Shown piece by piece: positions 29,175-36,573 of a stretch of 58,290 bases of DNA. The stretch comes from Holdemania massiliensis AP2. Its GTDB lineage: Bacteria; Bacillota_I; Bacilli_A; Erysipelotrichales; Erysipelotrichaceae. The DNA lies in the NCBI RefSeq assembly GCF_000327285.1, contig NZ_HE998569.1, forward strand, positions 331,776-390,065, written 5' to 3'. Numbering within the stretch: position 1 is the first letter of the stretch; each line of letters begins with the position of its first letter. The position numbers were made by a program, and so were the translations under genes. The notes under the pieces were generated by a model. The model searched no databases. It had not been told where the DNA came from and saw only the letters and a program-made list of their open reading frames with translations.

Positions 29175-29221
29175 GAAATCGACAAAAGTTTCACAATGTG
29201 AAGCTGAAGGAGGGAAAGAAA

Positions 29222-31162
29222 ATGAAGAATATTTCTCGACGGGACTTTCTGAAAGGCAGCGCCGCGACCGTCGCGGGGGCTGCGGCTCTGGGACTTTTAA
29301 GCGCCTGTTCCACCAACGAGGCGCCGACAGCGGTACCGACGGATGACAAGTTTGATAAGGAATGCGATTTTCTGATTGTCGGCTATGGCCTGGCTGGGGA
29401 AGCAGCCGCTTTGGAAGCCAACGACATTGATCCGAATGCGAAGATCTGCATTCTGGAAAAAATGGAAGAAGCCCAGGCCGGCGGCAACTCGATTGCTTCC
29501 GGACAGACCGTCATCGTTCCGGCACCGGATGATCTGGATACCTTCAAACGCTATCTGATTGCGTGCAGCCAGCCGAATCCAATTCCGGAAGAATACATTG
29601 ATTTTATGGCCAAAGAATTCTCCGATCAGCGCGGCTGGATTCAGGCTACTGTGGATAAGGTCGGCTATGAGCTGGGCTATGTCGGGGGCGGGCCGGTGGC
29701 CTGGGGTTCTTTAGTTACCGAATTCCCGGATCTGGACGGCTCCAGCTTCAAAGGCTGTTCCGCACATGTCCGCAAAGCCGGAACCACATTTGAATACGGC
29801 GGAGTCTGGAGAGGCTTTGATCTGGCTGTCCGCGACCGCGGGGAAAATATTGAACTGATGTTTTCCACAGCCTTCACCAGTCTGATTCAGAATCTGGAGA
29901 CCAAAGAGGTCAAAGGCGTTGTCGCCAAAGGCGCGGACGGAAAGGAAATCCGCATCAAAGCCAACAAGGGCGTACTGTTAGCCTGCGGCGGATATGAGAA
30001 CAATTTACAGATGCAGCGGGATTTCCACGGGATGGATCTGGTTTATACCGGCGGAACGCCAGGCAACACCGGCGACGGCATCCATGCCCTGATGAATACC
30101 GGCGCCAAGATCTGGCACATGAAAAATCAGACGCAGTCCGGCGGATTCTGGCTGGGCATCAAGGTCCCGGATCATGAAGCAACCTTTATGCGCAACTTCT
30201 CAATGGCCGGCAAGAGCTGGATTGAGGTCTGTGCGGACAACCAGCGTTTCTACAACGAATCCGCTGCCTATCACCGTCAGCACATGAAATTCAAGGAATA
30301 CGGCCATTATGTTGATCTGCCGCATGACCGGGCTTTGCCGGTCGATCTGATCTTTGACGAGAAAACCCGGACTGCCGGTGCGATTGTAACGAAGTGGCTG
30401 AGCTGGCCGATCACGACCGAAGGTTATGTCTGGTCGGATGACAACTCCGAAGAAATTGCCAAGGGCTGGATTATTAAAGCGGATACGATTGAAGAGCTGG
30501 CCGGCAAATTAGGCCGTGACCCAGAAGCTCTGAAGGCGACGATTGACGCTTACAACGCCGGCTGCAAATCTGGTCATGATGCGTTTGGCCGCAGTATTGA
30601 AACGATGGAACCGATTGATACCGCACCGTTCTACGCGGTCGGCATTACGCCGACGCTGGTCGCAACAACCGGCGGTGCGGAACGCAACGTTAAGGCGCAG
30701 GTACTGGATTGGAACGATAATCCGATTCCTAATCTGTATGAAGCTGGTGAATTAGGCTCGTATGTTTCCAACCTGTATCAGAACGGAATGTTTTTGGCCG
30801 AAGCCATTGCCACCGGCCGGGCAGCTGCGGATACGGCGTTTGGCGGACGTTCCACAGTAACCGCAGAAGTCAGCGGTGAAGTGGAAGAAAAGATTGATAT
30901 CACAAAGAAACCTGACGGCACCTATGATCAGCTGATCAAGGGCAACCATGGCGAATATACGCTGCGGGCTACTGTCGAAGGCGGCAAGATCACGAATCTG
31001 GAAATCGTTTCCGGCCGTGAAAACATGTTTATGGAAGACGATCAGCTGAAAGCCTTCTTTGATGAAGTCATTACCGGACAGAATGTGGAAGTGGATGCCA
31101 TTTCCGGAGCGACGCTGGATTCCAACAACCTGCTCGATGCCTTAAAAGCCATCTTCAAATAA
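29222..31162 (+). CDS. Tat-exported lipoprotein flavoreductase with FMN-binding domain
   Basis: A 646-residue respiratory-type flavoprotein. The N-terminus has a twin-arginine motif (SRRDFLKG) and then a lipobox LLSAC (C29), so it should be exported folded and anchored outside the membrane. Residues about 50-560 form an FAD-binding fumarate-reductase-like domain (FLIVGYGLAGEAAALEA, GGNSIASG, CGGYENN, NLYEAGELGS). The last 75 residues are an FMN_bind domain with DAISGAT, where Thr carries covalent FMN after ApbE-type transfer. The fumarate reductase segment NExTTRD is NESAAYHR here and the ANRLGGN segment is NLYQNG, so fumarate is unlikely to be the substrate. The substrate is unknown. The ATG at 29222 follows GAAGGAGGG. 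Confidence 0.9.
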   Translation: MKNISRRDFLKGSAATVAGAAALGLLSACSTNEAPTAVPTDDKFDKECDFLIVGYGLAGEAAALEANDIDPNAKICILEKMEEAQAGGNSIASGQTVIVPAPDDLDTFKRYLIACSQPNPIPEEYIDFMAKEFSDQRGWIQATVDKVGYELGYVGGGPVAWGSLVTEFPDLDGSSFKGCSAHVRKAGTTFEYGGVWRGFDLAVRDRGENIELMFSTAFTSLIQNLETKEVKGVVAKGADGKEIRIKANKGVLLACGGYENNLQMQRDFHGMDLVYTGGTPGNTGDGIHALMNTGAKIWHMKNQTQSGGFWLGIKVPDHEATFMRNFSMAGKSWIEVCADNQRFYNESAAYHRQHMKFKEYGHYVDLPHDRALPVDLIFDEKTRTAGAIVTKWLSWPITTEGYVWSDDNSEEIAKGWIIKADTIEELAGKLGRDPEALKATIDAYNAGCKSGHDAFGRSIETMEPIDTAPFYAVGITPTLVATTGGAERNVKAQVLDWNDNPIPNLYEAGELGSYVSNLYQNGMFLAEAIATGRAAADTAFGGRSTVTAEVSGEVEEKIDITKKPDGTYDQLIKGNHGEYTLRATVEGGKITNLEIVSGRENMFMEDDQLKAFFDEVITGQNVEVDAISGATLDSNNLLDALKAIFK

Positions 31163-33498: not shown

Positions 33499-33984
33499 TC
33501 AATGAATGTGGGTAATCATCGGCATGAAGTCCAGCTTCTCATCTGAAGGAACCATCTGAATCGTGATTTTGACGCCTTTGGATTCAAGATAGCGGAAAAT
33601 CTCAGCTTCCTGCGGTGTAACGCAGACAGTATGTTTAATCCGCGTTGAACCTAGCTTGTTGGAAATGTTGCCGACATTGATCGTTGGCATAAAGTAGCCT
33701 AAATCCAGAACCTCCTTGGCCGTCGCCGGACCGCGCATCACGATCATCAGCCGATCCTTGTCATAGGCGTTCTCATTTAACCGCTCGACAGCGCGCTGGG
33801 CAGACAAAATGGATAATCGCACCGTGGAAGGGCAAGCCATTTTCAAAGCCATTTTCTGAATATCATCTTTGGCTGCCAAATCGTCGATAACCAGAATACG
33901 GGTGACGTTCAGCATGTTGGTCCAATAGGCGGCTACCTGACCATGGATTAAGCGTTCATCAATCCGGATGTTTACAATACTCAT
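33499..33984 (-). CDS. PTS EIIB, mannose/fructose/sorbose family
   Basis: A 161-residue EIIB of the mannose class. It carries phosphate from EIIA to the incoming sugar. The phosphorylated histidine is H14 in DERLIHGQV, and the family motif VGNISNKLGSTRIKHTV is present. It starts four bases inside the end of EIIA. No EIIC or EIID membrane subunit follows, so it must work with subunits coded elsewhere. The GH88 gene nearby suggests an amino-sugar or glucuronyl disaccharide substrate, as for AgaV-type EIIB. Confidence 0.9.
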   Translation of the reverse strand: MSIVNIRIDERLIHGQVAAYWTNMLNVTRILVIDDLAAKDDIQKMALKMACPSTVRLSILSAQRAVERLNENAYDKDRLMIVMRGPATAKEVLDLGYFMPTINVGNISNKLGSTRIKHTVCVTPQEAEIFRYLESKGVKITIQMVPSDEKLDFMPMITHIH

Positions 33985-34409
33985 GATTCTTCTCCTCTCT
34001 GATCCGCAAATAAGATCTGCGGGTCGATGACATGGATCGCTTCTTTGGCTTCCAGCAGCGCATTGTTGACTAACTGCTGCACGGACTGGCTGCCGTTACG
34101 ATGAACCAGCAGATAAGTCAGTAAAGTCAGCGTTGCTTCGGTGATGATCTTGACCTTCTGATCCGGCAGCTGCACAAGGCAGACTTCCATGGGGAAACCA
34201 CCCTGCATATCGCATAAACATAAAATCTCATCGGTATCCGGCTGCCAGGCTTCAATTTGAGTGCCCAGCCGTTGGCGGCATAGCTCAAGATCGTCGCTCA
34301 GATCAATGTTCAAAGCCTGCAGATAAGGCTGCGGCCCGCAGAGCATTTCTGACGCTTCAATCAGCCCTTCACCAAAGCGGCCATGTCCGCAAATCAGGAT
34401 TCCAAGCAT
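33981..34409 (-). CDS. PTS EIIA, mannose/fructose/sorbose family
   Basis: A 142-residue EIIA of the mannose class. Phosphorylated His9 lies in ICGHGRFGEGL. The family motif around 65-75 reads DMQGGFPME, with Phe where Thr or Ser is usual. It accepts phosphate from HPr and hands it to EIIB, whose gene overlaps its stop (ATGA). AAGGAGATG precedes the ATG. A TATAAT lies at 34441-34436 on this strand. Confidence 0.9.
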   Translation of the reverse strand: MLGILICGHGRFGEGLIEASEMLCGPQPYLQALNIDLSDDLELCRQRLGTQIEAWQPDTDEILCLCDMQGGFPMEVCLVQLPDQKVKIITEATLTLLTYLLVHRNGSQSVQQLVNNALLEAKEAIHVIDPQILFADQRGEES

Positions 34410-34493
34410 AAACTCATCTCCTTGTCTCTGTCTTCATTATAACCAAGGGGTTCTTCGTGAACAGACTTTACCTATTTGTTGAGAAAGGATTTT

Positions 34494-34580
34494 GATTGAT
34501 TGTCAAAATGATGCGATTGATTGAAAAAATATTTTCATTTCTGCCGTTCTGATTGCAAAACCAGACACACTTTCTATAAT
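34494..34580. promoter_or_regulatory. RpiR promoter and candidate operators
   Basis: GATTGATTG occurs at 34494-34502 and 34515-34523, exactly 21 bases apart (two helix turns). TGAAAA and TTTTCA form an inverted repeat at 34522-34537. For rpiR, TTGCAA (34553-34558) and TATAAT (34575-34580) are 16 bases apart. The repeats lie between divergent EIIA and RpiR genes, so one RpiR operator could serve both. Confidence 0.6.
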
Positions 34581-34595
34581 GAAAGAGGGACGCTT

Positions 34596-35312
34596 ATGAA
34601 TATTCGGGAACGGTTGAGAAATACGCATTCGCTGAGCGCGAATGAACGGACGATCGCGGAATATCTGCTTAACCAGACAACAGAGGCCGTAGGCATGGAT
34701 TATCATCAGCTGGCTGAGCGCTGCCATGTTTCTGTCAGCTGCGTTTTTCGGCTGTGCCGAAAACTGGAGGTCAAAGGCTTTAACGAACTGAAGCTGCGCT
34801 TGTCCAAAGAGCTGAATGAGGAACTCAGCCGCTATCGAAACGTGGATTTCAGTATGCCGTTTGGTGCGGATGACAGTCTGGAAAGTCTGACAAACAGCCT
34901 GGCTAATGTTTATAAGCAGACGATTGACGACACGATAAGAATGCTCGATATTCAGGAATTCAAGGCCGTTGTTTCGGTTCTGACGCAGGTGCCGCGGATC
35001 TTTTTCATCGGCAGCGGAAGCAATCTTCTGATTGGACAAAGCTTGATGCAGAAGCTGCAGGAAATTGGCGTCAATATTCATGTGCCGTCGGAATTCGCTG
35101 ATGGCCGGCTGGTGTGCAGCAGTGCCGAGGCAGGCAGCGCCGCGCTGGTCGTTTCCTATGCCGGTATTTCCAGCTACATGCTTGAATGTGTAAAGGAACT
35201 GCGGCTACGTAAAGTAAAGATCATTTTGATTTCCAGCCGGTTGGATCAGAAGCTGCATTATTTTGCGGATTATCGGCTGTATCTGTGCAGTAAAGAAAAA
35301 CAGCGCCCGTGA
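34596..35312 (+). CDS. RpiR-family transcriptional regulator
   Basis: A 238-residue RpiR-type regulator: N-terminal helix-turn-helix (about 3-75, LSANERTIAEYLL, then CHVSVSCVFRLCRKLEVKGF) and a SIS sugar-phosphate-binding domain (about 100-235, IFFIGSGSNLLIGQ, then LVVSYAGISS). The start at 34596 is chosen because the promoter ends just before it and GAAAGAGGG is well placed. It lies between the EII genes and GH88 gene, both on the other strand, and probably controls them. Confidence 0.9.
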   Translation: MNIRERLRNTHSLSANERTIAEYLLNQTTEAVGMDYHQLAERCHVSVSCVFRLCRKLEVKGFNELKLRLSKELNEELSRYRNVDFSMPFGADDSLESLTNSLANVYKQTIDDTIRMLDIQEFKAVVSVLTQVPRIFFIGSGSNLLIGQSLMQKLQEIGVNIHVPSEFADGRLVCSSAEAGSAALVVSYAGISSYMLECVKELRLRKVKIILISSRLDQKLHYFADYRLYLCSKEKQRP

Positions 35313-35322
35313 ATGACGCTGT
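35296..35322 (-). terminator. Terminator of the GH88 gene
   Basis: ACAGCG (35300-35305) and CGCTGT (35317-35322) pair. On the minus strand the hairpin is followed by TTTTTC. It lies between the convergent RpiR and GH88 genes. Confidence 0.65.
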
Positions 35323-35340
35323 TCATGAAACAAATCAGAA

Positions 35341-36504
35341 TTACCAGTACATTTCCCAATCTTTGCTTAAGCGGGTGAGGGCTTCAAAATAGAAATAGTC
35401 GCCCCAACTGCAGCATTCATCGACGCCATGCTGACGGCAGCCATTGGTCGGCGTGCTGCGGCAATAAGTGCTGTTGAGCAGCTGACCGTTGGAAATTTTC
35501 GGATCTTTGACCGCACAGTGATCGTATAATGCTTTGATCATCCGTTTAGCATCGCTGATCAGCTTATCGGCTTCCACTTTTTCCACGTACTTTGCCATTT
35601 CCAGCATGCCGCAGGCAGCAATGGCACTGGCAGAGGAATCGCGCGGTTCATCGCTGCCATCGGTGAAATCAAAGTCCCAATACGGGATCAGATCACTTGG
35701 CAGATGATCGATGAAATATTTCGTAACATGCCGGAACAGATCGAGATATTCCGGATTGCGGGTATATTTGTAGCTGATTGCCAGACCGTAAACGCCCCAG
35801 CTCTGTCCGCGGGCCCAGGCTGATTCAGCCCGGTTGCCCTGATGCGAAACACCATGCGACGGCTTGCCGGTTTCCGGATCAAAGAAATAGGTATGATAGG
35901 TTGAGTAATCCGGGCGGATGACAACGCTTAACGCCGTATGAATATGCTTCAATGCGATTTCACGATACTTTGGATCGCCGCTGACTTCGGTAGCCCAGTA
36001 CAATAACGGCAGATTCAGCAGGCAGTCAATAATCAGTCGGTAATTATCCTTGGCGCCTAGAGGTCCCCAGGCCTGGATAAATCCGCCTTTTTCCTGGAAC
36101 CGGGTAATCAGCTTGCCGGCGGCTTTTAATGCCGCTTCTTTGGCTTTTTCATCTTTTAACAGCTTATAAGCTGCGACGCAGGAAGGGGAGTACAGAAAGC
36201 CTAAATCATGATGTTCCAGAACAATGTTGCGGTTGACACGGTCTAAAAAGCTGTCCACATGGGTTAAGCCGGTCTGTTTGAAGCAGTCTTCCTTTGTGGC
36301 TTCATAGGCCAGCCAGACCTCGCCGGTCCAGAAACCGTTGGTCCATTCGGTATTGTCCATCTGCGGATAGAAATTGTTGACGCTGTTGGGATACTTCATA
36401 CTGGTGGTGAAGTCGTTCAGGCCGCTGCGGACCTGCTCGACAGCGTAATGGATCGCCTCGTTCAGTTCAGTGTCGGTCAGTTCAGGATAGTTTGCAAAGT
36501 TCAT
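35341..36504 (-). CDS. ugl: GH88 unsaturated glucuronyl hydrolase
   Basis: A 387-residue alpha/alpha-barrel enzyme of glycoside hydrolase family 88. It removes the unsaturated uronic acid from disaccharides made by hyaluronate or chondroitin lyases. Diagnostic stretches are NTEWTNGFWTGEVWLAYE, LEHHDLGFLYSPSC with a catalytic-type Asp, LIIDCLLNLPLLYWA with the second Asp, and ESAWARGQSWGVYGLA. No signal peptide, so it acts in the cytosol on PTS-imported sugar. GAGAGGAG precedes the ATG. GH105 is the near alternative, less likely from the motifs. Confidence 0.9.
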   Translation of the reverse strand: MNFANYPELTDTELNEAIHYAVEQVRSGLNDFTTSMKYPNSVNNFYPQMDNTEWTNGFWTGEVWLAYEATKEDCFKQTGLTHVDSFLDRVNRNIVLEHHDLGFLYSPSCVAAYKLLKDEKAKEAALKAAGKLITRFQEKGGFIQAWGPLGAKDNYRLIIDCLLNLPLLYWATEVSGDPKYREIALKHIHTALSVVIRPDYSTYHTYFFDPETGKPSHGVSHQGNRAESAWARGQSWGVYGLAISYKYTRNPEYLDLFRHVTKYFIDHLPSDLIPYWDFDFTDGSDEPRDSSASAIAACGMLEMAKYVEKVEADKLISDAKRMIKALYDHCAVKDPKISNGQLLNSTYCRSTPTNGCRQHGVDECCSWGDYFYFEALTRLSKDWEMYW

Positions 36505-36528
36505 GAGAAATCTCCTCTCTATGTCCCT

Positions 36529-36573
36529 ATTGTAGCAAGTTTATGCAAGAAGTTCAACAGCCTTGTATACAAG
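36529..36573 (-). promoter_or_regulatory. GH88 promoter with CTTGTATACAAG palindrome
   Basis: On the minus strand TTGAAC (36557-36552) and TACAAT (36534-36529) are separated by 17 bases. Directly upstream, CTTGTATACAAG (36562-36573) is a perfect 12-bp palindrome, a possible activator or repressor site. Confidence 0.65.

Follow-up and report, generated by a model that had tools for sequence, protein, structure and literature searches.

A 58,290-nucleotide stretch of the genome of the gut bacterium Holdemania massiliensis AP2, referred to below as the window, encodes the two soluble enzyme II components (EIIA and EIIB) of a mannose-family phosphotransferase system (PTS) next to an RpiR-family regulator and a glycoside hydrolase family 88 (GH88) unsaturated glucuronyl hydrolase (UGL). 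The original prediction had read these genes as one compact glycosaminoglycan (GAG) disaccharide locus without its membrane components, EIIC and EIID; the observation was right, and the one-locus reading is doubtful. Our preferred reading, in which we place about as much belief as doubt, is that the EIIA-EIIB pair most likely acts in trans, serving orphan amino-sugar permeases whose genes lie in other parts of the genome. The permease and the sugar that we name are inferred from sequence comparison. The UGL does not belong to a canonical GAG-PTS cluster.

The window is C3:331776-390065 of the 3.81-Mb Holdemania genome G000; handles beginning with C, G and L denote contigs of this genome, genomes and loci. 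Holdemania sp. Marseille-P2844 is G104 (locus L023) and H. filiformis DSM 12042 is G078 (locus L024).

Orphan mannose-family components in the genome

The genome holds 28 EIIC genes (29 matches, one gene lying in two pieces), 29 EIID genes, 28 EIIB genes and 28 EIIA-type matches, of which three fall within frames of 920-956 amino acids. Partners were counted as linked when they lay within 6 kb. By this rule 25 of the 28 EIICs have an EIIB, and exactly three EIIC-EIID sets do not, which supports the earlier proposal that the membrane subunits lie elsewhere and should be sought among AgaW/AgaD-type genes without an EIIB of their own. AgaW is the top NCBIfam model for the EIIC of all three, with scores under the curated 300-bit cut-off. 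The set at C3:108343 (L014) belongs to an operon, C3:107,409-112,966 (L014:7910-13467), in which EIIC, EIID, a DUF3604 protein and a sulfatase stand beside a GntR gene, with neither EIIA nor EIIB. The set at C3:149144 (L013) comprises GntR, EIIC, EIID and SIS genes, and that at C2:647637 (L015) an RpiR gene beside EIIC, EIID, NanE and SIS genes, again with no EIIB within 6 kb of either. On the soluble side, only two of the 28 EIIBs, those of the window and of C2:907591, are without a linked EIIC, and the window EIIA is the only such case among the 28 EIIA-type matches. This accounting, in which three EIICs are without an EIIB while two EIIBs and one EIIA are without an EIIC, is one reason for suggesting that the pair acts in trans. 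The closest paralogs of the window EIIB in its own genome are the EIIBs at C2:907591 (70% identity) and C1:1042790 (64%).

Pairing of component clades in relatives provides a further reason. Trees were built from 66 EIIBs (27 from the H. massiliensis genome) and 69 EIICs (26 from it), and their clades were compared by linkage. The window EIIB falls in a 23-member superclade (local support 0.98). Thirteen of these EIIBs have an EIIC within 6 kb, and for 12 it belongs to the L014 clade (3) or the L013/L017 clade (9); the corresponding count for other EIIBs is 0 of 40 (Fisher 5e-11, the rows not being independent and the p value illustrative). IQ-TREE trees, which carried no support values, gave the same membership for the window superclade and for both EIIC clades, and placed the L015 EIIC differently from the first tree. 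Operons like that of L014 still contain an EIIB in G020 (L187), in G076 (L189) and in G006 (L188), where an EIIA is also present and the order is C-D-DUF3604-sulfatase-B-A; those of Holdemania (the H. massiliensis genome, G078 and G104), G085 and G120 are without one. An EIIB at least 46% identical to the window's is present in 7 of the 8 genomes with an L014-type EIIC (at least 45% identity), compared with 10 of 137 others, in match lists that extend below both thresholds; in the eighth, G076, the linked EIIB is 39% identical. For the second orphan set, a superclade EIIB lies 2.5 kb from the L013 relative in G025. L015 is tied indirectly, through its SIS protein, which shares 71-73% identity with proteins encoded close to superclade EIIBs in G085 and G120.

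The window EIIA, in turn, groups with the EIIAs of DUF3604-sulfatase PTS operons in G006 and G033 and with one EIIA of its own genome at C4 (FastTree support 0.59-0.87; IQ-TREE ultrafast bootstrap 97-100, labels read after re-rooting). The clade pairing, the homologous operons that keep their EIIB, the grouping of the EIIA and its ratio of nonsynonymous to synonymous substitution (dN/dS 0.135) all argue for a pair that would serve permeases of this kind.

Several observations weigh against this reading. The window EIIA is remote from other proteins, with 24-34% identity among the matches listed outside its own gene and G104. The window EIIA could also be used by the EIIB-EIIC-EIID sets at C2:329906 and C2:881532 (L021 and L022), neither of which has an EIIA within 6 kb, and an extra EIIA-EIIB pair lies at C2:487.8-488.6 kb, 5 kb from a set with another A and B, so the picture of a single orphan pair hangs on the 6-kb rule. 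The pairing of 12 of 13 superclade EIIBs comes from a table that is not a random sample, its loci having been selected for resemblance to the window EIIB or to the EIIC of C3:108343, and the thirteenth EIIB (in the H. massiliensis genome, at C2:219.7 kb) is linked to an EIIC outside the two clades. Three components stood outside the trees, namely a C-D fusion at C2:493180, the broken EIIC at C1:1360546 and an EIIB at C7. Within the superclade, the window EIIB is nearer to the EIIBs linked to the C1:1038080-type permease, a permease already equipped with an EIIA and an EIIB, and the window order, A-B, differs from the B-A of G006. Finally, H. filiformis has the DUF3604-sulfatase permease (95% identity) and not the window cassette; another EIIB would therefore serve there, making the window pair not indispensable, and the best H. 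filiformis matches to the window EIIB are 71% and 65% identical.

Three further findings concern these gene families. At C1:1,360,546-1,361,239 the EIIC in two pieces occupies two frames between EIID and EIIB, through either an assembly error or a broken gene. A lone EIID at C1:1,292,633-1,293,445 (L016) resembles by eye the EIID at C1:1,037,182, its nearest EIIC match being 68 kb off. The lone EIIB at C2:905.5-908.0 kb (L019:7542-10038) has two neighbours that were named by eye, a regulator of the ROK type and an EIIA-like protein of the glucose type.

The UGL and the RpiR-EIIA-EIIB cassette

The cassette and the UGL have different histories. A UGL is kept in all four Holdemania genomes sampled, with 97% identity to that of the window in both Marseille-P2844 and H. 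filiformis DSM 12042 and 85% in the fourth (G035, locus L028), and the RpiR-EIIA-EIIB cassette adjoins it in two of the four, H. massiliensis and Marseille-P2844. In H. filiformis the UGL site has no cassette: the match to a 311-amino-acid gene begins 159 bases past the UGL, and as the 210-base gap of N in that assembly falls within this gene, any cassette concealed there would need to split the gene. Either insertion of the cassette in the other genomes or its loss in H. filiformis could account for this. No EIIA, EIIB or RpiR label was seen within 10 kb of the UGL in G035. The claim of one compact GAG-disaccharide locus is thus not supported. Between the window and Marseille-P2844, dN/dS is 0.021 for the UGL, 0.091 for RpiR and 0.135 for EIIA (for EIIB, dN is 0.093 and dS was not computable), and identity is 97% for the UGL, 86% for EIIB and 76% for EIIA. 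Among 145 family genomes, the Marseille-P2844 ortholog is the only protein, apart from the window EIIA itself, that is more than 40% identical to it.

The promoters also differ. The palindrome CTTGTATACAAG, at 36562-36573 upstream of the UGL, is perfect in all four Holdemania UGL promoters and was not found in the promoter region shared by EIIA and RpiR, which bears a different palindrome, TGAAAAAATATTTTCA, at 34522-34537; the latter is not perfect in the Marseille-P2844 ortholog. A scan of 514,227 bases of the H. massiliensis genome (window and overlaps included) found a single exact CTTGTATACAAG site, that of the UGL. Two further sites have one mismatch, and one of them, upstream of the C1:1038080 EIIC, is kept in H. 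filiformis and not found in G035. The 17 sites with two mismatches are about the number estimated for chance, and we therefore claim no regulon.

A UGL match is present in 20 of the 145 family genomes. In the short stretch around the UGL, an EIIC lies beside it at 11 of the 12 family loci with 46-50% identity (L110-L121), a streptococcal layout shared by L096, L101 and L102 and not by L122, a further family match at 36%. Neither EIIC nor EIID was labelled in the flanks of the seven window-type loci (the window and L023-L028, L027 and L191 being one record; at least 78% identity), where labels come from single-query or small-profile searches that will miss distant relatives and L026 ends 272 bases after the UGL on one side. 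Of the 74 loci L029-L102, four carry an EIIC/EIID label, and 39 carry a label for a sulfatase or heparinase-like gene without one for EIIC/EIID. In a tree of 94 UGLs, all 15 with an EIIC/EIID label form one group (support 0.71); the window UGL belongs to a 71-member clade (support 0.93) in which no member has such a label in the stretch examined. It thus stands outside the PTS-linked clade, and it has no linked EIIB, EIIC and EIID set as in the streptococcal systems. By this phylogeny, the window UGL is not of the PTS-linked type. The make-up of the 71-member clade, together with the absence of the cassette at the H. filiformis site, counts in favour of our reading of the pair; the promoter palindromes, and the placement of both the UGL and the soluble proteins outside the streptococcal GAG-PTS lineages, likewise tell against a single locus.

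Four residues of the Streptococcus agalactiae UGL, Arg236, Ser365, Ser368 and Lys370, contact the 6-sulfate and serve as markers of specificity for 6-sulfated disaccharides. The window UGL has His, Cys, Thr and His at the aligned positions, but the last three adjoin an insertion of six residues, in an uncertain part of the alignment.

In two sister metagenome-assembled genomes (L025 and L027), the window-type UGL adjoins a different EIIA, with no EIIC or EIID in the stretch examined. This EIIA is 55-58% identical to the EIIA of a complete H. massiliensis set at C4, and the other UGL neighbours, named by eye, are MurQ-, major facilitator superfamily- and DhuI-like genes. At L027 a superclade EIIB lies 3.5 kb from the UGL.

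Genes of the window locus

Profile matches and key residues bear out the original identification of the four genes. EIIB (33499-33984, minus strand) matches PF03830, the mannose/sorbose family, over positions 1-148 of 148 with 159.7 bits (cut-off 27). The acceptor histidine of such proteins sits in an RxDxRLIHGQ motif and is kept here as His14. The gene overlaps by four bases that of EIIA (33981-34409, minus strand), which matches PF03610 with 52.9 bits (cut-off 21.4) and keeps Asp67 and, within the expected 9-10 region, the acceptor His9. AgaF is its top NCBIfam model, at 67.1 bits against an equivalog cut-off of 130, so we call the protein AgaF-like. The GGFP loop noted in the original prediction occurs in 2 of 43 aligned EIIAs, the window protein and its Marseille-P2844 ortholog; on this alignment it is real and lineage-specific. 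An AlphaFold single-sequence model of EIIA (mean pLDDT 39) was not used.

The EIIA-RpiR intergenic region (34410-34595) is a divergent promoter region. The regulator (34596-35312, plus strand, 238 amino acids, start corrected to the ATG at 34596) gives the HTH_6 and SIS matches of the RpiR/MurR family, in agreement with the original description. Its C-terminus is short: some 40 residues of the 278-amino-acid Marseille-P2844 ortholog are missing, and the truncation falls near the 3' end of the UGL gene. RpiR is divergent from EIIA, convergent with the UGL and on the opposite strand from both; UGL, RpiR and EIIA-EIIB therefore cannot form one operon. The UGL (35341-36504, minus strand) scores 78.3 bits against the GH88 profile PF07470 and 409 bits against S. 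agalactiae UGL structures, and it keeps two catalytic aspartates, Asp100 and Asp160. The catalytic pair of the S. agalactiae enzyme is Asp115 and Asp175.

No complete EIIABCD set exists at the locus, the closest EIIC on the contig being 216 kb off. Whole-genome family searches placed no EIIC, EIID, Lyase_8, Hepar_II_III_C or sulfatase match in the window, other lyase families not being searched; within that scope the predicted lack of membrane subunits, lyase and sulfatase is confirmed. Further along the window, 29198-31162 encodes a Tat-signal FAD/FMN-binding reductase, flavocytochrome c-like, and inspection by eye showed comparable frames of the Tat type in further stretches of the genome.

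Other glycosaminoglycan genes

The genome has two GH88-family matches only. The second UGL (C5:106-110 kb, L018:6349-9559), 60% identical to that of the window, adjoins a HepC-like heparinase II/III protein (105 bits, under cut-off), and no mannose-family EII lies in the 18 kb around it. At C2:850-860 kb (L237), a PL8 lyase frame of 2,564 amino acids (359 bits against HylB, under cut-off) is directly upstream of a complete EIIB-EIIC-EIID-(HAD)-EIIA set. A complete EIIABCD with its own GH88, the finding named as refuting the original prediction, did not emerge; what was found is a complete set beside a lyase, and a second GH88 with no such set in the 18 kb around it. The PL8-linked set also lies by a ceramidase-like gene and a PRD/BglG-like regulator, both named by eye, and genes at C2:886-888 kb are KdgK- and KdgA-like by sequence. 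A GAG pathway in this genome is plausible, and its import step is at least as likely to run via the PL8-linked PTS as via the window pair. As a partner for the window pair, the PL8-linked PTS was set aside because it has its own EIIA and EIIB.

Discussion

In the mechanism that we propose, phosphate would pass from HPr to His9 of EIIA and on to His14 of EIIB, both residues being in place. The pair, having no membrane subunits of its own, would then serve AgaW/AgaD-like EIIC-EIID permeases elsewhere in the genome; the GntR-linked EIIC-EIID-DUF3604-sulfatase operon at C3:108343 is the best-supported candidate partner, and the set at C3:149144 the second. These permeases would probably import and 6-phosphorylate amino sugars, some of them perhaps sulfated, and the sulfatase could then desulfate the sugar in the cytoplasm, a guess based on its CxPSR motif and on the lack of an evident signal peptide by eye. 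The DUF3604 protein of the operon had no match among solved structures and gave a sub-threshold NCBIfam match to the CehA/McbA metallohydrolase. RpiR, divergent from EIIA, probably controls the pair. The UGL would be a separate gene with a promoter site of its own and, by homology, would cut unsaturated GAG disaccharides in the cytoplasm.

In S. agalactiae, a UGL adjoins mannose-family EIIA and EIIB genes much as in the window (gbs1889-1890; PMC6837340), and the GAG-PTS imports the unsulfated unsaturated hyaluronan disaccharide (PMC6837340). In strain JCM 5671 of that species, 55 genes split the cluster between EIIA and UGL and hyaluronan halos are still formed (PMC6837340); similarly, the UGL and metabolic genes of Enterococcus faecium H57 lie on different contigs (PMC6045597). 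By analogy, the window pair might be the soluble half of a GAG-disaccharide PTS whose membrane half has moved elsewhere and whose product goes to the adjacent UGL. Adjacency to the UGL in two Holdemania genomes, the presence of a PL8 lyase by a complete PTS, the EIIA of another type beside two of the three sister-genus window-type UGLs and the superclade EIIB at L027 are all consistent with this. We nevertheless think it unlikely. None of the 26 H. massiliensis EIICs in the tree groups with UGL-linked EIICs, their best matches being 30-39% identical (outside the tree, the C-D fusion reaches at most 33% identity and the pieces of the broken gene at most 52 bits); two of the four Holdemania UGLs have no cassette, the CTTGTATACAAG site of the UGL promoter is missing from that of EIIA, and the PL8-linked set has its own soluble components. 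Moreover, the window differs from the streptococcal system in having no EIIC or EIID nearby, a UGL and EII proteins of other lineages (EIIA gives 44 bits to gbs1890, 4tkz), an RpiR regulator and, among seven proteins scanned in and near the locus, no pathway lyase, isomerase, reductase, kinase or aldolase.

A different kind of sharing is possible, though we rate it rather unlikely: the window EIIB and those at C2:907591 and C1:1042790 may form an exchangeable soluble pool, each serving several AgaW-type permeases. The similarity of the three EIIBs, the three permeases lacking an EIIB against two EIIBs lacking a permease, and the persistence of the DUF3604-sulfatase permease in H. filiformis without the window pair would all fit, as would the ties of all three orphan permease types to superclade EIIBs in relatives (through the same locus for two and through the SIS protein for C2:647637). 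Such promiscuity is so far conjectural, and with one orphan EIIA by the 6-kb rule the EIIA step would need sharing too; in G033, a relative of the C2:647637-type EIIC uses a linked EIIB from another clade. We regard it as improbable that EIIA and EIIB are regulatory phosphocarriers that signal whether the PTS is phosphorylated, perhaps to a regulator, and take no part in transport. EIIAs without EIIC or EIID near the UGL in two sister genomes would suit such a role, but the genome has 28 mannose-type EIICs, three without an EIIB, the window EIIB retains its acceptor histidine in a clade that pairs with permeases, and the neighbouring regulator is an RpiR/SIS protein and not a PRD protein. Just as improbable, in our view, is a decaying remnant. 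The cassette is missing in H. filiformis, RpiR has lost its C-terminal residues and EIIA and EIIB have diverged more than the UGL; all frames are nonetheless open, key residues are kept, and dN/dS is 0.135 for EIIA and 0.091 for RpiR.

Other known systems resemble the locus in part. The Aga (N-acetylgalactosamine/galactosamine) PTS, composed of AgaF, AgaV, AgaW and AgaE, provides the best models for the window EIIA (67 bits) and the orphan EIICs; all scores are under the equivalog cut-offs (130 and 300 bits), and no agaS-type gene was seen among the neighbours scanned. The window UGL groups with non-PTS-linked UGLs, as in the Streptobacillus-type cluster of an ATP-binding cassette (ABC) importer, sulfatase, heparinase-like gene and UGL (PMC5430744); no ABC importer was found among the window proteins scanned beside the UGL, no genome search for one having been made. 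Brucella likewise has a mannose-family EIIA without an adjoining permease gene, yet it is said to be without any PTS permease (PMC2937029), whereas H. massiliensis has 28 EIIC genes. Since C6 is phosphorylated during PTS uptake (PMC6837340), 6-sulfated sugars should be excluded, an argument begun in PMC5430744; PTS import with desulfation before or after UGL has been proposed for GAG disaccharides (PMC6045597). Holdemania is not named in the excerpted main text of PMC12838403 or PMC9067506. In the open-access literature on Holdemania and glycosaminoglycans, on sulfatases with PTS, on orphan EIIA/EIIB and on sulfated sugars with PTS, we recognised nothing like the window arrangement among the matches listed.

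Extending the in-trans reading, one could picture a hub-and-spoke PTS in which a few interchangeable EIIAs and EIIBs, one pair of them by the UGL, energise three EIIB-less AgaW-type permeases, at least one of which would import a sulfated amino sugar, phosphorylate it at C6 and pass it to a cytosolic sulfatase; taken as a whole, this picture is speculative and rather doubtful.

The specificity of a PTS is often read from its gene neighbourhood. Here the neighbourhood would probably mislead on substrate, because the pair adjoins a GAG enzyme and yet its relatives are encoded with amino-sugar permeases. Three permeases, two EIIBs and one EIIA make a small matching problem in which the sharing of mannose-family EIIBs could be tested, and the PTS-plus-sulfatase operon at C3:108343 could take up sulfated amino sugars.

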